A stretch of DNA of 64,000 bases. It comes from Streptococcus pluranimalium (GTDB lineage Bacteria > Bacillota > Bacilli > Lactobacillales > Streptococcaceae). Where the stretch lies: NCBI RefSeq assembly GCF_002953735.1, contig NZ_CP025536.1:1866001-1930000 (forward strand), read 5' to 3'. The translations under genes and the position numbers were made by a program. The notes beneath the pieces are model-generated. The model did not search any database, had not been told where the DNA came from, and saw only the letters and a list, made by a program, of their open reading frames with translations. Positions 6,269 to 24,521 of the stretch are shown in pieces; positions within the stretch are counted from its first letter, which is position 1; every line of letters begins with the position of its first letter.

Positions 6269-7015
6269 TTATTGATTGATTCCTGCCCACTCAACAATGG
6301 CCTGTTGTTCTGCCAAAGGATTGACCACAACACCTAAAGTATCGCCAGCTTCTTGACGATCTTTCTGAAGAATCTCTTCTAGTTTCCAAACGAAAACTGA
6401 CCCTCCCATTTCTCTAAAAGGCAAGCCAAACTCCTCGTTGTTATACCAGTCTGCAAAATGTGGCAAACTTGAAAAGACAGGAACAAAGCTCTGCTCCAAC
6501 TCGTTTGCTAGGGTTGGGAAACGACGCTCATGGCTGCCATCCTCTTTTGGATAGATAAAAACTGGCACCAAATAAACTTTCTCTAACAAGTCAGCGGCTT
6601 GATTTTCATCACTCATGATGTCATTGATTAGTTGTGTAAAGGTATTAACAAACTGAATCATTTCACTCGATTGAAAAATGGTTGAATTACTGAAATCTCC
6701 TGAACGTTTGACATTAAAAATCAAACCTGTCAACTGATGCAAAATAGCTTCTTCAAGCACATCTAGGGCAGAGCGTTCAATCCAGTCTTGCCCTGATGCT
6801 GATGGATGCTCATGACAGAAGACTTCAAGATCTTCTGTACTAGTAAATACTGGTGTTAATTTTTGCCCATCAATGGCAATCGCATAGGGTTCTGAACTGG
6901 CAAGGACAGGATACATATGCATACTATTGACCAGAGCAATGCTTCGCAGAAAATTATCCGGTTCTGCGATGAATTGACGAAGGGCTAGACCCAACTCAAT
7001 GTTAAATCTTTCCAT
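6269..7015 (-). CDS. SseB-family protein
   Basis: A 248-residue soluble protein resembling SseB N-terminal-domain proteins, found beside pnp and cysE in streptococci. Segments such as LVNSMHMYPVLASSEPYAIAIDG, VYLVPVFIYPKEDG and GLPFREMGGSVFVWKLEEIL fit the alternating strand/helix pattern of that family. No catalytic motif is known. The ATG at 7015 lies 2 bases after the pnp stop and uses AAGGAAA inside pnp, so translation is probably coupled to pnp. Biological role is not established. Confidence 0.7.
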   Translation of the reverse strand: MERFNIELGLALRQFIAEPDNFLRSIALVNSMHMYPVLASSEPYAIAIDGQKLTPVFTSTEDLEVFCHEHPSASGQDWIERSALDVLEEAILHQLTGLIFNVKRSGDFSNSTIFQSSEMIQFVNTFTQLINDIMSDENQAADLLEKVYLVPVFIYPKEDGSHERRFPTLANELEQSFVPVFSSLPHFADWYNNEEFGLPFREMGGSVFVWKLEEILQKDRQEAGDTLGVVVNPLAEQQAIVEWAGINQ

Positions 7016-9347: not shown

Positions 9348-10109
9348 TTAGAAGTCCAACTGCATCTGCTCGTTAAAGTAGGTTTTGTAAGCAAAATAGG
9401 AAGCAATCACAGAACCCAAGCTTGTAGCCGCTAAAAGCATAAACATGACCATAATTTGATATTTAATAGCGTAAACCGGGTCTACTCCTGCAAAAATCAA
9501 GCCAGACATCATCCCTGGTAGGCTAACCAAACCAACTGTTCTCGCAGAGTCAATGGTTGGCTGAACACCTGTTTTAATCGCTTGACGCAAAATAGATAGC
9601 GAAGCCATCTTAACTGGCGATCCAAGGGCTAACTTTTCCAAGACTTGCTGGCGCTGATCCGTGAACAAACTGTGCATGGCACGATAACTGAGTCCGATGG
9701 CAACCATAGAGTTGCTGGCAATCATCCCTGAAATAGGAACAATCTGAGAAGGAACAGCTTTGATGGCACCCGAAGCAATCAGAATACCCAAAGTGATAAT
9801 CGTTGATAGCAACAGCGCCACCCAAGACTGCCATAGATATTTGGTCTTATTAGGATTGCGCGAATGGGCTTGTCGACTGGCATTAAAGATAATCACCATA
9901 ACCATAGCAAAGGTCAAAAAGATATTATTGACTTGGAAAATATATTTCAATACAAAACCAACAAGTACCAACTGTACAACCGTTCGTACCACGGCGATAG
10001 CCACATCTTTCCCTAAGCCTAATTTTTCTTTAGCACTGATGCCCATGGCTAAGAGCACTAAGCCGAAAGCCAAAGCCAAAGATAAGTTACTAACTGATAC
10101 GTTTGTCAC
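9348..10109 (-). CDS. fetB: FetB-type ABC transporter permease
   Basis: 253-residue integral membrane protein of the YbbM/FetB (UPF0014) family, the permease partner of FetA in an exporter linked in E. coli to iron homeostasis and oxidative stress. About seven hydrophobic helices are seen. Conserved pieces include FNASRQAHSRNP, ISGMIASNSMVAIGLSYRAMHSLF, AIKTGVQPTIDSARTVGLVSLPGMMSGLIFAG and the following membrane segments. Start is GTG 10109 with GGAG nine bases upstream, overlapping fetA by 20 bases. The two genes form a complete transporter. Confidence 0.88.
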   Translation of the reverse strand: MTNVSVSNLSLALAFGLVLLAMGISAKEKLGLGKDVAIAVVRTVVQLVLVGFVLKYIFQVNNIFLTFAMVMVIIFNASRQAHSRNPNKTKYLWQSWVALLLSTIITLGILIASGAIKAVPSQIVPISGMIASNSMVAIGLSYRAMHSLFTDQRQQVLEKLALGSPVKMASLSILRQAIKTGVQPTIDSARTVGLVSLPGMMSGLIFAGVDPVYAIKYQIMVMFMLLAATSLGSVIASYFAYKTYFNEQMQLDF

Positions 10110-10743
10110 CGACTAATACTCCTTTCTCGATAGTCACCAGACGACTAGCTGCTTGAATTTCCTCACTGTCATGAGTCACTTCGATAATGGTGTGACCGGC
10201 CGTATGGTAGTCTGCAATAACACCGTTAACCAAGCGCTTAGTAACACCATCTAAACCAGCAGTCACCTCATCCAGTAACAAAACCCTAGGTTCAAAAAGC
10301 AAATTGCGCACAAGAGCCACACGCTGCTTCTCACCACCAGATAGGTCCTTGACCTCTTGGTCAAGATAAGCTCTAGATAAATCAAAACGTTCCAATTGCC
10401 CCACTACCTTAGCCTCATTGAAAGGAAGTTGACGAATCTCAAAAGGAAACTGCATATTATCTCTGACAGTCTTACCAAACAAGACAGGCTGTTGAAAACA
10501 ATATGACACCTGACGACGATAGCTTACAGGATCTAGATCTGCCAAAGACTTGCCATCAAAGATAATATCTCCAGAAACTGGGGAAATCAGGCTTGATAAA
10601 AGCTTCAATAGACTACTCTTACCACTTCCAGATGGACCTGATAAGGTCACTCGCTCTCCATCTTCCACCGATAAAGAGATATCAGATAAAATTGCCTTAT
10701 CCGCTACTTGATAAGACACATGATTAAGATTAAAAATAGACAT
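10090..10743 (-). CDS. fetA: FetA-type ABC transporter ATP-binding protein
   Basis: 217-residue nucleotide-binding subunit paired with FetB. Walker A is GPSGSGKS (about residues 36-43), the signature LSGGEKQR and Walker B VLLLDE follow in order, with a Q-loop in SYCFQQP and the H-loop in VTHD. ATG 10743 lacks any ribosome-binding site. Instead an extended -10 (TG-A-TATAAT) ends only six bases before the ATG, so transcription would start at or next to it. This makes a leaderless mRNA likely. Confidence 0.9.
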   Translation of the reverse strand: MSIFNLNHVSYQVADKAILSDISLSVEDGERVTLSGPSGSGKSSLLKLLSSLISPVSGDIIFDGKSLADLDPVSYRRQVSYCFQQPVLFGKTVRDNMQFPFEIRQLPFNEAKVVGQLERFDLSRAYLDQEVKDLSGGEKQRVALVRNLLFEPRVLLLDEVTAGLDGVTKRLVNGVIADYHTAGHTIIEVTHDSEEIQAASRLVTIEKGVLVGDKRIS

Positions 10744-10814
10744 GACGTTATTATATCACTCTCTCAGTAAAATAATAAGAAAACAGTTTCAATCTCAACA
10801 ATATACTTATAAAC

Positions 10815-10841
10815 AAAAAAAGATATTCCACTAGGAATATC
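10815..10841 (-). terminator. Terminator directly behind the 11-codon peptide ORF
   Basis: Perfect 8-bp stem GATATTCC/GGAATATC (10822-10829 with 10834-10841), 4-base loop, then seven T residues on the minus strand. It begins within the stop codon of the short ORF, which defines a transcript of roughly 70-80 bases. Confidence 0.85.
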
Positions 10842-10875
10842 AAATAAAAAACCATAAAATCGAACCAAAATTCAT
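10840..10875 (-). CDS. Candidate ComS-like pheromone precursor, 11 residues
   Basis: ATG at 10875 opens an 11-codon frame encoding MNFGSILWFFI. It is enclosed between a ComR-type box (10926-10941) with a plausible -10 near 10897-10904 and an intrinsic terminator that starts in its stop codon. A weak AAGAAAG site lies ten bases upstream of the ATG. Short, strongly hydrophobic and Trp-containing peptides encoded right after comR are the known cognate signals of ComR-like RRNPP regulators. The call is inference from layout and composition. No such peptide was recognised from memory, and expression is unproven. Confidence 0.55.
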   Translation of the reverse strand: MNFGSILWFFI

Positions 10876-10896
10876 GATATAGCTACTTTCTTGGAA

Positions 10897-10941
10897 AATA
10901 TATCACAATGATAAACTCTAAAAACAGGACAATAATGTCCT
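10897..10941 (-). promoter_or_regulatory. ComR-type box and promoter of the short peptide ORF
   Basis: Perfect 16-bp palindrome AGGACA-ATAA-TGTCCT at 10926-10941, overlapping the regulator stop codon. On the minus strand it is followed by a T-tract (TGTCCTGTTTTT) and a candidate -10 (GATATA/TATATT) about 21-23 bases on. This is the architecture of ComR-activated comS promoters, which lack a usable -35. Confidence 0.7.
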
Positions 10942-11833
10942 AGACTAACCTTTTGTCTTTGTCGTATTCCATTTTTAAACGATTAAGCAATATCGGTTCG
11001 TCTAAAGACTCGGCGATTAGAAAAGCTGTTTGATAGCTACTTTCCATCTGCTCGATATCCCCTTGAAATAAAGCCAATTTAGCTTTAAACATCTCTAAAA
11101 TCGGCTTGTTTTGATAATGCTTAGTGACTTTAATCACACGATCTAAAGTATCAATACAGTCTGGATAGTAGGCAACATTTTCTTGTGCTAAAACTGCCAA
11201 AACAACTTCTTCCATTTGATAAGCAATATCTGGATCAGATAAGTCTCCTTTTGAAAAAATAGACGGAATAAAGTAATCAAAATAACGACTATCTTCAATA
11301 CCTACTGCACATAAAAAGAGGTATAGAGAAATAAGAAGATAGTCATTCCAATTGTAAGCCTTTTTCAGTAAAACTTGTTCAAAATATTCTTCAATCAGTT
11401 GCTCTGCAAAAGCTGTTTTATGGGTAACAAAAACATCCAAATCAGCTTGTAACACCTCAATAGCCATCTGTTCTTCTTCAGGGACTGAATCATAATAGGT
11501 TTGCAGTTCATCCATCAACCCATCCAAATAGTTTAGTCTTTCAGGATCTTCGTAACTTTTGAATTGGACAATACGACGTTTAAGAGACACATATGATTGA
11601 GGAAGCGCCATTTTATCAGGTTCAATAAACTCCTGAATGGAAACGCCTAGTCTTGACGCAATAAAAAGGCCTTTATCTATTGACAGCAAACTCTTCCCTG
11701 TTTCAATCCGAGTTAATTGTCGGACGCTCAAATGTGATTCATCATCGCAGAGAGCTTCCTTTGTATACCCCTTACGCTTTCTTGCAGCCCTAACCCGCTG
11801 TCCTATCTCAGCTTTCAATTCCTCAGACATCAT
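10940..11833 (-). CDS. ComR-like RRNPP (Rgg-type) peptide-sensing transcriptional regulator
   Basis: 297 residues. The N-terminal helix-turn-helix (about residues 8-65) contains EALCDDESHLSVRQLTRIETGKS, closely matching the ComR DNA-binding domain as I recall it. The remaining 230 residues are helical repeats of the TPR type, the peptide-binding domain. ComR proteins bind imported hydrophobic peptides and activate promoters with GACA-TGTC palindromes. Two ATGs (11833, 11830) follow GGAG; the second has better spacing. It has its own TATAAT promoter behind the exporter terminator. The divergent context (exporter, peptide) suggests a ComR paralogue running its own circuit, not the competence regulator itself. 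Confidence 0.85.
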   Translation of the reverse strand: MMSEELKAEIGQRVRAARKRKGYTKEALCDDESHLSVRQLTRIETGKSLLSIDKGLFIASRLGVSIQEFIEPDKMALPQSYVSLKRRIVQFKSYEDPERLNYLDGLMDELQTYYDSVPEEEQMAIEVLQADLDVFVTHKTAFAEQLIEEYFEQVLLKKAYNWNDYLLISLYLFLCAVGIEDSRYFDYFIPSIFSKGDLSDPDIAYQMEEVVLAVLAQENVAYYPDCIDTLDRVIKVTKHYQNKPILEMFKAKLALFQGDIEQMESSYQTAFLIAESLDEPILLNRLKMEYDKDKRLV

Positions 11834-11867: not shown

Positions 11868-11898
11868 AAAAAATACAGAAATATTAATATTTCTGTAT
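11868..11898 (-). terminator. Terminator of the ABC exporter, followed by regulator promoter
   Basis: ATACAGAAAT (11873-11882) pairs with ATTTCTGTAT (11889-11898), then TTTTTTG on the minus strand. The stem touches the permease stop codon. Immediately beyond, TATAAT precedes the regulator, giving it independent expression. Confidence 0.75.
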
Positions 11899-12593
11899 TA
11901 TTGACGCATTTTTAAATTCCTCTTGTAAGAGTAAATGAGAGCAACAGCAAGTAAAATTGCCCATACCAATAGGGCACAAAACTGCTGAGAAAATAACTCA
12001 AATGTTTTCCCTTGGGTCAAAAAGGCCTGACTTAAACCGATAAAGGAATAATTCAAAACTGTATTAAAACCTTTAAGTTCAGCTGATAAAATTGGGAGAA
12101 AAGTTACAAAAAAGAAAATCATTAAACTGTATGCACTGGCTTGCAATTGCGTTTTAGATAATAAGGCAATCGTACTATTTAATGCAATAAAAACCATTGT
12201 TGTCATTAAAATAACGAAAACATATGTCCCCCAAGAAACAATCTCAACACCACCTATCATTGGGATAACAAGCGCAGAAATGGTAGAAAAAACGATAGGA
12301 AAGGCAAATATCGAAAGCAGATACTCTGCCTCACCAACTCCAGACAGCAATAAGGTCTTCAAATTTCTTTTTTCTTTCTCCTCGCTAATAATCATCGATG
12401 AAAAAATACCTGCTGTTAGCGCATAAATCATATTAATTGACATCGATAGCAAAGAAACACTTCCTCTCATATCAGGAATAATATTCAAAAGATAGGCATC
12501 TACTATTGGCATAAGACCACAGATGATTAGAATGACTTTATTACTTAATAGGTAGCGCCATCTCAACCACAACAAAGATGAAAAATTAGCCAT
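11898..12593 (-). CDS. ABC-2 type transporter permease
   Basis: 231-residue membrane subunit with six hydrophobic helices, in the order of ABC-2 exporters: helix 1 after WLRWRYLLSNK, the cytoplasmic loop EEKEKRNLKTLLLSG between helices 2 and 3, then helices 3-6 and a short basic tail KRNLKMRQ. It overlaps the ATPase gene by 8 bases and has GGAGG upstream, so both subunits are made together. Such two-gene exporters beside peptide genes often export or confer immunity to bacteriocin-like peptides; that role is inferred from context. Confidence 0.85.
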   Translation of the reverse strand: MANFSSLLWLRWRYLLSNKVILIICGLMPIVDAYLLNIIPDMRGSVSLLSMSINMIYALTAGIFSSMIISEEKEKRNLKTLLLSGVGEAEYLLSIFAFPIVFSTISALVIPMIGGVEIVSWGTYVFVILMTTMVFIALNSTIALLSKTQLQASAYSLMIFFFVTFLPILSAELKGFNTVLNYSFIGLSQAFLTQGKTFELFSQQFCALLVWAILLAVALIYSYKRNLKMRQ

Positions 12594-13416
12594 GATTTTC
12601 CTCCGTCAATTTGATAAATATAGTTTCTAAGCTTGTTTCATAGGTATGCATACTAACAATATCATGATCCAAATAATCTTTGACGTTCGATTTAGCTACA
12701 ATGATTTTTTTGCCACTAGCATATGTTAATTCAATAGCATCTTGTTTACTATGTCGAGTAATGATATCAGATGGACTTCCATTTTCGACAATTTGTCCTT
12801 TATGTAAAATAGTAATATAATCACAAACTTTGCTAGCTTCTGACATATTATGCGTAGTTAGGAAGATGGTTGTACCCCTAGATTTCAAATCAAACAAGAG
12901 ATGATGTACTTTTTCTGCTAGACTGGGATCCATTCCAGAAGTAGGCTCATCCAAGAAAACTACTTCCGGATTGTGCAAAATCGCTCGAATGAGGAGCAGA
13001 CGCTGTTTCATACCAACAGATAAACTTTCCGCTTTTTTATGACGACTATCATATAAATCTAGCTTCTTTAAGTAATCATAGACCGTCTCTTTCGAGACTT
13101 TATGAAACTTTGCAAAGAATAATAGATTATCCTCAACGGTCATCTTTTCATAAAAACCAACAACATCACTCATGATACCTATCCTTTTGAAGTCATGCTT
13201 GGTTAATGATGACACATCTTTTCCGAAGATAATTGCTCCTCCACTATCCGCACGAAGCTGACCAGTTAAAATGTTAATTGTTGTTGTCTTACCAGCTCCC
13301 GAAGGACCTAAGAATCCAAATATTTGACCTTTATCAAGGCTAAAAGAAATATTATTCAGCGCAGATGAACCTTTAAATGACTTTGATAACTGTTTGACTT
13401 CAATTTGTTTAGACAT
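12586..13416 (-). CDS. ABC-2 type transporter ATP-binding protein
   Basis: 276-residue ATPase subunit. Walker A is GPSGAGKTT (about residues 37-45), the signature is LSVGMKQR, Walker B with D-loop is VVFLDEPTSGMDPS, and the switch histidine is in LTTHNMSE. The C-terminal 70 residues form the small accessory region common to antibiotic and lantibiotic-immunity exporters (DrrA/BcrA type). AAAGGAG precedes ATG 13416. Its promoter carries a ComR-type box 21 bases upstream of TATAAT, placing it under the neighbouring regulator by inference. Confidence 0.9.
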   Translation of the reverse strand: MSKQIEVKQLSKSFKGSSALNNISFSLDKGQIFGFLGPSGAGKTTTINILTGQLRADSGGAIIFGKDVSSLTKHDFKRIGIMSDVVGFYEKMTVEDNLLFFAKFHKVSKETVYDYLKKLDLYDSRHKKAESLSVGMKQRLLLIRAILHNPEVVFLDEPTSGMDPSLAEKVHHLLFDLKSRGTTIFLTTHNMSEASKVCDYITILHKGQIVENGSPSDIITRHSKQDAIELTYASGKKIIVAKSNVKDYLDHDIVSMHTYETSLETIFIKLTEENHG

Positions 13417-13443: not shown

Positions 13444-13516
13444 ATTATAAAATAATATCTCCTAGAAAACAGGACATATTTGACCTATTACAAAATTCAT
13501 TTCTAAACGATATTAT
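13444..13516. promoter_or_regulatory. ComR-type box between exporter and divergent peptide gene
   Basis: AGGACA-TATT-TGACCT at 13471-13486 has the same 6-4-6 geometry as the box at 10926, with one mismatch to perfect symmetry. Both share the 11-base string AAAACAGGACA. On the minus strand TATAAT (13444-13449) lies 21 bases downstream. On the plus strand GATATT/TATTAT (13509-13516) lies 22-24 bases away, so the box could serve both directions. Confidence 0.65.
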
Positions 13517-13573: not shown

Positions 13574-13654
13574 ATGCTAACTGGTGTACTCATCTATACA
13601 GGTGTTAAAGTAGGACTAGCAGCTGCTGCAGCCTACTACTATACACATCGATAA
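13574..13654 (+). CDS. 26-residue hydrophobic peptide, candidate effector or bacteriocin-like peptide
   Basis: ATG 13574 has a strong GGAGG eight bases upstream (13562-13566), and a good terminator follows the TAA by about 10 bases, so this tiny gene is well delimited. The product begins MLTGVLIYTGVKVG, has a run of five alanines and ends AYYYTHR: an apolar helix with a basic end and no double-glycine leader or Cys. It is transcribed away from the exporter across a shared ComR-type box. Possible roles are leaderless bacteriocin, membrane-active peptide or signal. I do not recognise a family. Confidence 0.6.
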   Translation: MLTGVLIYTGVKVGLAAAAAYYYTHR

Positions 13655-22757: not shown

Positions 22758-24521
22758 TTATTTACGTTTTGGTGGGTTATGGATAGCTTCACCCAATACA
22801 TCAGCAAATGCTTCGTACATAACTTCTGAGAAGGTTGGGTGTCCGTGAATTGAAAGGAGAAGTTCATCTACTGTCAATTCATTTTCCATAATAGTTGCTG
22901 CTTCGTTGATCATTTCAGCTGCTGCTGGACCAATGATGTGCACACCAAGGATTTCATGGTATTTAGCATCTGCGATAACTTTAACAAAACCTTGGTCTTC
23001 ATTTGAAGCAATAGCACGTCCGTTACCTGTGAAGCTGTTTTTACCGATAAGGATGTCACCGTATTTAGCACGAGCATCTTCTTCAGTCATACCAACCATG
23101 GCAACTTCTGGGTGTGTGTAAACAGCAGCTGGTGTAAATTCAAGGTTAGCTTTGCGAACTTTACCATGCATAGCATTTTCAGCAGCTACTTCACCCATAC
23201 GGTAAGCAGCATGCGCGAGCATTTTAGTACCGTTCACATCACCTGGTGCGTAGATACCTGGAATAGATGTTTCTTGATACTCGTCAACCTTAATACGGTT
23301 ACGCTCCATTTCAAGATTAAGGTTTTCAAGTCCATTCATTTGTGGTACACGACCGATTGAAAGGAGTGCTTTTTCAGCAACAACTTCTGAACCATCGTTA
23401 AGTTTCAATGTCAATTGGTTGTTTGCTTCAACAATTTCAGAAACACCAACAGATGTCTTGATGTTCATACCTTTTTTAGCAAGAATTTTTTGAAGTTCAA
23501 GAGACACTTCTTTATCCATAGCAGGGATGATACGATCAGCCATTTCAATAACAGTAACTTCAACACCGTATGAAGCCCATACAAGTCCAAGTTCGATACC
23601 GACAACACCGCCCCCCATAACAGCAAGTGATTTCGGCATTTCACGAAGGTCAAGAATATCGTCAGAAGTCAAGACAAGTTTAGAGTCAATTCCTGGGATA
23701 TTGATGCGTGATACTTTTGAACCAGTTGCAAGGATAATATTACGTCCTTTGATGGTTTCTGAACCAATTGTAACTGTTTTATCTGGGTTAACTTGTCCAA
23801 GTCCATTGAACATGGTTACTTTGTTAGCTTTAAGAAGACCTGCAACACCACCTGTCAATTTCTTAACAACAGAGTTTTTGAAGTCAACTGTTTTATCCAT
23901 ATCGATAGTATAGTTTGTTGAAGCAAGGTTGATACCACGACCGGCCGCATGCTTAATACCATCAAGGATTTCAGCATTTTTAAGGTAAGTCTTAGTTGGG
24001 ATACATCCCACGTTCAAACAAGTTCCACCGAATTCTGATTTTTCAACGATGGCAATTTTACCACCGAGTTGAGCACCGCGAATAGCAGCGTAGTAACCAG
24101 CAGGGCCACCACCAACAACGATGATGTCGTACTCATTATCTGCAAGTGGCGCTTTTTCAGCAGCAGGCGCAGCTTCTTGAGCTGGTGCTTTTGGCACTTC
24201 AAGACCTGCAGCTTCAAGGTCTTCAGTCGTACGTTTCACATCAACATCAGATCCTGCAGGTGAACCAGCTTCCACTTCTTCACCAGCTTCACCAATGTAC
24301 CCGATTGTTTCTGTTACTGGTACCGTTTCACCAGCTTGACGAGTGATTTTCAAAAGAACACCTGAGTCTTCTGCTTCGATTTCCATGTTTGTTTTATCAG
24401 ACATGATTTCAAGAAGAACATCACCTTCAGCGACAGTATCACCTTCAGCTTTTTTCCACTCGATGATTTCACCCTCGGCCATATCAACACCGAGTTTTGG
24501 CATAATAATTTCAACAGCCAT
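22758..24521 (-). CDS. acoL: Dihydrolipoamide dehydrogenase (E3) with N-terminal lipoyl domain
   Basis: 587-residue flavoprotein that reoxidises dihydrolipoamide with NAD+. Residues 1-80 form a lipoyl domain with the modifiable Lys43 in MSDKTNM. A flexible Ala/Pro/Glu linker follows, then the FAD-binding GGGPAGYYAAIRGAQLG, the redox disulfide in GGTCLNVGCIPTK, the NAD site MGGGVVGIELGLVWA, and the C-terminal HGHPTFSEVMYEAF with the catalytic His-Glu. ATG 24521 has AAAGGAAA upstream; the extra N-terminal codons to 24554 are untranslated. Last gene of acoABCL. Confidence 0.95.
   Translation of the reverse strand: MAVEIIMPKLGVDMAEGEIIEWKKAEGDTVAEGDVLLEIMSDKTNMEIEAEDSGVLLKITRQAGETVPVTETIGYIGEAGEEVEAGSPAGSDVDVKRTTEDLEAAGLEVPKAPAQEAAPAAEKAPLADNEYDIIVVGGGPAGYYAAIRGAQLGGKIAIVEKSEFGGTCLNVGCIPTKTYLKNAEILDGIKHAAGRGINLASTNYTIDMDKTVDFKNSVVKKLTGGVAGLLKANKVTMFNGLGQVNPDKTVTIGSETIKGRNIILATGSKVSRINIPGIDSKLVLTSDDILDLREMPKSLAVMGGGVVGIELGLVWASYGVEVTVIEMADRIIPAMDKEVSLELQKILAKKGMNIKTSVGVSEIVEANNQLTLKLNDGSEVVAEKALLSIGRVPQMNGLENLNLEMERNRIKVDEYQETSIPGIYAPGDVNGTKMLAHAAYRMGEVAAENAMHGKVRKANLEFTPAAVYTHPEVAMVGMTEEDARAKYGDILIGKNSFTGNGRAIASNEDQGFVKVIADAKYHEILGVHIIGPAAAEMINEAATIMENELTVDELLLSIHGHPTFSEVMYEAFADVLGEAIHNPPKRK

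Follow-up and report, generated by a model that had tools for sequence, protein, structure and literature searches.

In a 64,000-nucleotide stretch of the Streptococcus pluranimalium genome (the window), a gene for a ComR-family regulator ends inside a palindromic box that is followed by a promoter-like element and an 11-codon open reading frame (ORF), and a second, near-identical box precedes an adjoining ABC exporter operon. We propose that this cassette is probably a ComRS-like autoinduction circuit outside competence, which would drive its own pheromone gene together with an SptAB-like exporter. The proposal is based on the receptor family, the two boxes confined to the cassette, the promoter layout, conservation in Streptococcus hyovaginalis and recurrence of the layout across the regulator family.

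Results

The regulator and its genomic setting

All elements named in the original prediction are present on the minus strand, where the order is ATPase gene (13416-12586), permease gene (12593-11898), regulator gene (11833-10940), box 1, T-tract, -10 element, mini-ORF and terminator. The cassette is flanked by rpsO (S15) on one side and by a UPF0014-type ABC pair (assigned by Pfam) and pnp on the other. Its G+C content per 500 bp is 0.33-0.37, compared with 0.36-0.47 in the flanks shown; low G+C and location are consistent with acquisition of the cassette but do not prove it. In the 8 kb of S. thoraltensis inspected at a candidate empty site, other ORFs lie downstream of rpsO. The UPF0014-associated ABC ATPase gene (10090-10743) is intact in the window; its two-frame match in S. 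hyovaginalis DSM 12219 (locus L049, about 6420-6430) looks as if frameshifted.

The regulator (297 aa, 10940..11833, minus strand) carries both domains of the ComR receptor family, an HTH (Pfam HTH_3, E=3.6e-7) and a ComR_TPR domain (E=1.6e-41), and is a candidate peptide receptor by Pfam, structure profile and trees. A 12-row profile of its relatives matched three full-length ComR proteins among the solved structures at E values of 1.2e-75 to 6e-73, and Rgg chains far more weakly. Among the NCBIfam matches listed, no family reached its cut-off. Across 284 Streptococcus genomes, 200 contain a match at E <= 1e-20, yet a close orthologue (94% identical) occurs in only one genome besides its own, the next best match being 41% identical. 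Identity to ScuR and SarF, taken from a scuR-sptAB-sarF-type locus (L144), is 31.5% and 32.2%, respectively.

Relatives for phylogenetic analysis were collected by genome searches and a contig scan (141 found, 79 loci kept), from which 96 distinct regulators were taken. A quick IQ-TREE analysis of 71 of these plus ScuR and SarF, with 25 of the 96 left out, separates 26 from 47 rows at an SH-aLRT support of 89, under midpoint rooting and with some long branches. The smaller side, hereafter the ScuR side, includes the window regulator, ScuR, SarF and paralogues from mitis-group streptococci, S. suis, S. danieliae, S. hyointestinalis and Enterococcus. The 47-row side comprises the S. pluranimalium comR, other comR genes paired with a WW-type ComS, and additional sequences from Enterococcus and Vagococcus. 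A first tree, with 19 of the 96 regulators left out, had given a similar split of 25 versus 52 rows at a support of 92.

Two boxes confined to the cassette

Box 1 (AGGACATTATTGTCCT, 10926..10941, minus strand) overlaps the stop codon of the regulator, the TAG (10942-10940) and the palindrome (10941-10926) having AG in common. It is the sole perfect copy of AGGACA-N4-TGTCCT in the whole genome of 2,065,522 bp. At one mismatch there are two further places, box 2 and genome position 1937021, the latter within a RelA/SpoT coding frame. Within the 64-kb window, two sites occur at up to one mismatch versus 0.14 expected, a count reached by 0 of 100 shuffles; at up to two mismatches the same two sites stand against 2.15 expected and thus are no more than chance.

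Box 2 (AGGTCAAATATGTCCT, 13471..13486, minus strand), which the original prediction had overlooked, lies upstream of the ABC operon, and a TATAAT -10 hexamer (13444..13449, minus strand) is found 23 nt past its GTC. Both boxes are correctly oriented toward their downstream genes. Genome-wide, the oriented pattern GGNCA-N4-TGTCCTGTTTT matches with zero mismatches only at boxes 1 and 2, the next best sites having two mismatches; as the N was chosen once box 2 was known, this result shows a small target set and is no independent prediction.

Mini-ORF, promoter and ribosome site

Downstream of box 1, a T-tract leads to an extended -10-like element (TGATATATT, 10897..10905, minus strand; hexamer TATATT at 10902-10897). 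The dyad box at the regulator 3' end, T-tract and -10 element together form the layout of a ComRS-type cassette, with a spacing of 25 nt from the GTC of box 1 compared with the 24 nt usual in the family. The mini-ORF (10840..10875, minus strand; ATG at 10875, TGA at 10842-10840) encodes the candidate pheromone MNFGSILWFFI. An upstream extension of this frame was rejected, as the ATG is preceded by an in-frame TGA and none of the nine codons between them is ATG, GTG or TTG. An intrinsic terminator, GATATTCC-TAGT-GGAATATC followed by a T-run (stem 10822..10841, minus strand), begins in the stop codon of the mini-ORF.

A close orthologous cassette is present in S. hyovaginalis DSM 12219 (L049), a member of the second genome collection. 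No difference is seen there in box 1, the -10 region or the terminator, and box 2 is kept together with its TATAAT, with one change in N4. Identity amounts to 94% for the regulator, 90% for the ATPase, 96% for the permease and 100% for a 26-codon ORF described below. The mini-ORF differs at two positions, both silent, so that all 11 residues are identical; the exact peptide was found in these two species only. Conservation of box and mini-ORF beside orthologous regulators, which the original prediction had put forward as its check, is thus borne out by one close orthologue that keeps both, and the layout recurs family-wide.

The two strains differ at the ribosome site, which reads AAGTAGC in the window strain versus AAGGAGA in S. 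hyovaginalis (stretch preceding the ATG: AAGTAGCTATATC and AAGGAGATGTATC, respectively). The window mini-ORF has no Shine-Dalgarno (SD) sequence of at least 4 bases and is therefore not scored by the SD criterion of the family survey below. Its calculated anti-SD pairing energy is -5.7 kcal/mol versus -13.5 kcal/mol in S. hyovaginalis, and falls within the range of nine other window genes (-4.1 to -10.7 kcal/mol). Translation of the mini-ORF may be weaker in the window strain than in S. hyovaginalis, and decay of the mini-ORF in the window strain is a live rival to the reading as a working pheromone gene.

Competence genes elsewhere in the genome

The genome encodes one other ComR homologue (87537-88424), which is 33% identical to the cassette regulator and groups with the S. 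thoraltensis comR in the tree. Downstream of this gene lie a CGTGACTTTTTTGTCATG box and a gene for a WW-type ComS, MFAIIISLISCLGTATGWWLG. Two ATGACATTTATGTCAT boxes, at 23254 and 299157, have near-identical upstream regions. The 168-codon frame after the box at 299157 is comX-like, giving weak sigma-70 matches below the cut-offs; the 91-codon frame after the box at 23254 matches no model, has a start similar to that of the 168-codon frame and is perhaps a shortened comX copy. Both boxes end in ATGACA/TGTCAT, as opposed to AGGACA/TGTCCT in the cassette. A query with the S. thermophilus ComS found no match in 7 genomes and was uninformative.

The presence of a complete comR-comS pair elsewhere, with a different box, supports the claim that the cassette is a separate ComRS-like circuit, for which the 11-residue peptide is the candidate signal.

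Recurrence of the layout on the ScuR side

For a survey of the family, a box was scored as GAC-N6-GTC at most 130 nt from the regulator stop (chance 0.9% each), and a mini-ORF as an ATG-initiated ORF of 8-40 codons with an SD of at least 5 bases, 40-110 nt past the box. Among 36 ScuR-side regulators (24 in the second tree and 12 near-duplicates placed by similarity), 33 have a box and 16 a mini-ORF with SD, versus 1.08 expected, the loci not being independent. The other side, which served as a positive control, has a box in 45 of 60 and a mini-ORF in 38 of 60, against an expectation of 2.14 and again among non-independent loci. Its peptides contain WW in 29 of 38 cases and WxxW in 6 more; with 35 of 38 belonging to one of the two types, the criterion finds known ComS types. 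An earlier survey of 18 hand-picked loci had given 9 positives versus 0.67 expected; the 36-regulator survey is the fuller figure.

Three assignments bear on these counts. L126 (Facklamia) was on the ScuR side of the first tree, was omitted from the second owing to its long branch and is counted on the other side, with no box; moving it would give 33 and 16 of 37 on the ScuR side and 45 and 38 of 59 on the other. The regulator of L005 has an internal stop, and the box after it was counted. The 29-aa positive of L017 is probably a chance ORF, because its close relatives L012, L014 and L019 are without a mini-ORF.

In 17 of the 33 ScuR-side loci with a box, the window included, no mini-ORF is found by the criterion, and several of these boxes precede another gene. 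Four mitis-group relatives of L025 (L026, L028, L031 and L070) keep the box and are missing the 16-codon ORF; their box directly precedes a 73-codon ORF, which in L025 is located past the mini-ORF, and this layout suggests loss of the peptide gene. At L013, which has a ScuR-side regulator and a mini-ORF, a 59-codon ORF whose leader is of the double-glycine type (LMNTEGG) lies about 281 nt past the mini-ORF stop and is possibly a bacteriocin target of the circuit at this locus.

Candidate peptides

The ScuR side yields 11 distinct candidates: MNFGSILWFFI, MFGFAVFLSLSFWFSG, MLGVIVTVLSLVFLVD, MVVTSIITILSLIFLVE, MVGTLFVLLSIGVWFYL, MLFATTLLSTLIWMFY, MVFTNTLNLFCDGMMYL, MVLISGPLEVCPWILV, MILITALLMIIDFLRN, MVLMMVFLTVFLWMPG and MIRILTLLSFFVYLFY. 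In this set, near-duplicate peptides (L010, L015, L018, L027 and L068) are represented once; it includes the gordonii peptide (L023), whose box region is a run of N and which is outside the 16 positives. An aromatic residue (W, F or Y) occupies position -4 in 10 of the 11 peptides (10 of 12 if L017, which was excluded, were counted), and in 6 of the 11 this residue is W; in 20,000 within-peptide shuffles, neither figure was reached at any single one of the seven C-terminal positions. WW-type peptides ending in DWWGL or SWWGL have W at -4 as well. Synthetic ScuR activators from a random screen, as given in the available text of PMC6703854, carry W at -5 and preferably G at -1, so that they and the ScuR-side candidates, aromatic at -4, are different classes.

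The precursor had been described as unusually short, which is a question of degree: other comR genes are followed by WW-type mini-ORFs as short as 13-14 codons, which places the 11-mer at the end of the range and not outside it.

In S. danieliae STR (L095), the regulator closest to ScuR/SarF by the tree has a box downstream and, about 72 nt past its stop, MIRILTLLSFFVYLFY with a strong SD. Judged by sequence, MIRILTLLSFFVYLFY may be the nearest thing to a ScuR-type native pheromone among the loci compared.

The exporter operon and a divergent 26-codon ORF

The ATPase (12586..13416, minus strand; Pfam ABC_tran) is SptA-like, being 50% identical to sptA of L144 and 47-50% identical to ATPases near several ScuR-side regulators. 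The ABC-2 type permease (11898..12593, minus strand) is SptB-like, with 37% identity to sptB of L144, and its Pfam match to ABC2_membrane_2 (27.1 bits) is just below the cut-off of 27.2. The ATPase reached no NCBIfam cut-off among the 25 of 188 matches listed, and the permease matched no NCBIfam family. What had been noted as an exporter in the neighbourhood does adjoin the regulator, and appears to be more than a neighbour: it is an SptAB homologue with a promoter layout of its own at box 2, from which it would be driven.

L144 (genome G182) was recognised as a scuR-sptA-sptB-sarF-type locus by its layout and by the 82.8% identity between its two regulators, the published value for ScuR and SarF being 82% (PMC6703854, available text). 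Its box overlaps the stop of the first regulator gene, scuR, and precedes the ATPase gene sptA with no mini-ORF between. A search of G182 for a ScuR-type box before a mini-ORF gave a single zero-mismatch box, at sptA, and 15 other listed places with 2 mismatches. L007 (G283) had also been considered as a scuR-sarF locus and was rejected, since the 9.5 kb inspected contain one ComR-like regulator only; L144 fits. Loci of the S. australis and S. mitis DD26 types carry a regulator, a box and a mini-ORF in that order; next comes an ORF of 75-76 codons, the start of which overlaps or abuts the stop of the mini-ORF, and then an SptA-like ATPase gene. The window shows a third arrangement, with the exporter upstream under its own box and the mini-ORF alone past the stop-codon box. 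Another SptAB-like pair, in G044 (L147, 3671-5186), has, among the loci compared, the ATPase most identical to that of the window apart from S. hyovaginalis (58%), and neither a ComR-like regulator among its neighbours nor an obvious box.

Divergent from the ABC operon, a 26-codon ORF (MLTGVLIYTGVKVGLAAAAAYYYTHR, 13574..13654, plus strand) is a cassette member by synteny; it is preceded by a good ribosome site and has a terminator-like hairpin of its own. At E<=0.1 it is found in 3 of the 284 genus genomes, namely its own, the S. hyovaginalis-type G061 and one weak match (E=0.094), and no NCBIfam model matches it. It is possibly a cargo or effector of the exporter.

Discussion

Relation to known systems

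The cassette is closest in kind to the ScuR/SarF-SptAB system of S. salivarius, which in the available texts of PMC6703854 and PMC12998947 is likewise a ComR paralogue outside competence that adjoins a two-gene SptAB-type transporter, termed bacitracin-like in PMC12998947. In both, the exporter promoter has a box, that of L144 overlapping the scuR stop. Whereas ScuR/SarF-SptAB has paired regulators, the cassette has one, and it is not an orthologue of ScuR or SarF. The ScuR locus has sptA where the cassette has the mini-ORF; the cassette exporter lies upstream.

With competence ComRS of type II (WW), the cassette has in common the HTH plus ComR_TPR receptor, the box at the receptor stop, the T-tract, the -10 element, a short hydrophobic ORF with W at -4 and the terminator. 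It differs in its single W, its 11 codons and a box edge of AGGACA instead of the ATGACA of this genome; its predicted regulon shows no link to comX and includes an exporter. The leaderless communication peptides (LCPs) of RopB, most of them 8-10 aa long (PMC10518010, available text), are likewise very short, hydrophobic and leader-free and are encoded beside the receptor gene. An LCP system of the RopB clan of Rgg was rejected on receptor family, by Pfam and solved structures, the cassette receptor belonging to the ComR family; RopB is retained as a functional analogy. The 'extra ComR' regulators of the salivarius group, too, are non-competence ComR paralogues, with the pheromone listed as unknown in Table 1 of PMC12445099. 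The cassette, unlike these, belongs to another species group and has a candidate pheromone gene at the ComS position.

No report of ScuR-side mini-ORFs was found in the literature covered, which included few subscription journals and the accessible parts of PMC13361665, PMC8027600, PMC9765709, PMC10075063 and PMC5131902. Supplementary propeptide lists (Table S2 of PMC12445099; the RRNPP_detector set of PMC10075063) may hold some of them. An RRNPP receptor with an adjacent peptide is thus of a known kind, and the ScuR-side peptide class and the arrangement of the cassette look new.

Alternative explanations

The palindrome and T-tract (TAGGACATTATTGTCCTG-TTTTT) also score as a terminator-like hairpin (10942-10925), and so both roles are possible for box 1. 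Were it only the terminator of the regulator gene, the 11-codon ORF would be untranslated, either part of an RNA or a chance ORF; the weak ribosome site of the window strain would suit this, as would the folding of RNA 10812-10900, which is somewhat better than that of shuffles (z -2.45, terminator included). We consider such an explanation quite unlikely, because the same oriented box also precedes the ABC operon, at a point where no same-strand gene ends, a box near the stop is common to 33 of 36 ScuR-side regulators, and in S. hyovaginalis both ORF differences are silent and an AAGGAGA site is present. It is also unlikely that the circuit is real but answers another signal (a foreign peptide, another ORF or a small molecule), the mini-ORF being decayed or irrelevant in the window strain. 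In its favour, several ScuR-side relatives lack a mini-ORF although box and regulator are present, non-peptide metabolites can elicit a response from S. salivarius ComR (PMC12998947, available text), and ScuR answers synthetic peptides, no native peptide having been found in its genome according to the accessible part of PMC6703854. However, the mini-ORF is the only predicted box-driven product besides the exporter operon, it sits at the position of a ComS gene, and its peptide is identical in two species.

A second competence ComRS feeding comX would share the receptor family and the comR-box-mini-ORF layout, and is very improbable. A complete comR-comS is located elsewhere; the ATGACATTTATGTCAT boxes, one of them before the comX-like frame, have outer bases unlike those of the cassette boxes, and the genome contains no further copy of the extended cassette pattern. 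Moreover, the trees place the regulator outside the competence side, and its peptide has a single W and no WW. A second competence locus was rejected on these grounds.

Model and implications

In the autoinduction circuit that we favour, the mini-ORF peptide, either whole or as its C-terminal 7-8 residues (for example SILWFFI), would enter the TPR pocket of the ComR paralogue. The peptide-activated regulator would bind box 1 and box 2 and thereby raise expression of its own peptide gene and of the SptAB-like ABC exporter operon, creating positive feedback. By analogy, the peptide would be re-imported via Opp, and the exporter might export the peptide, or export or protect from an antimicrobial. 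From the sequence we infer that the mini-ORF is translated, that its peptide is exported, re-imported and bound by the regulator, that the regulator binds the boxes, and what the exporter does. The length of 11 codons would suit activity without a leader, as for the LCPs of RopB (PMC10518010, available text).

More tentatively, and with more doubt than confidence, the ScuR side could have its own leaderless pheromone class, whose box-driven ORFs, 11-17 codons long, would encode peptides that are aromatic at -4 and end in a mostly hydrophobic tail. The co-regulated SptAB-like transporter would then export the cassette peptide, whole or as its C-terminal part, so that signal, exporter and receptor would form a self-contained module, and the class would supply the missing native ligands of 'extra' ComR regulators. 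In the accessible literature, the native ligands of ScuR and SarF were still unknown in March 2026.

The comparison yields eleven concrete candidate peptides beside their presumed receptors, together with a search rule: about 50-80 nt past a box near the regulator stop, an ORF with an aromatic residue at -4. Finally, an 11-codon precursor raises the questions of where the lower size limit of a ComS lies and whether trimming is required at all for a ComR ligand.
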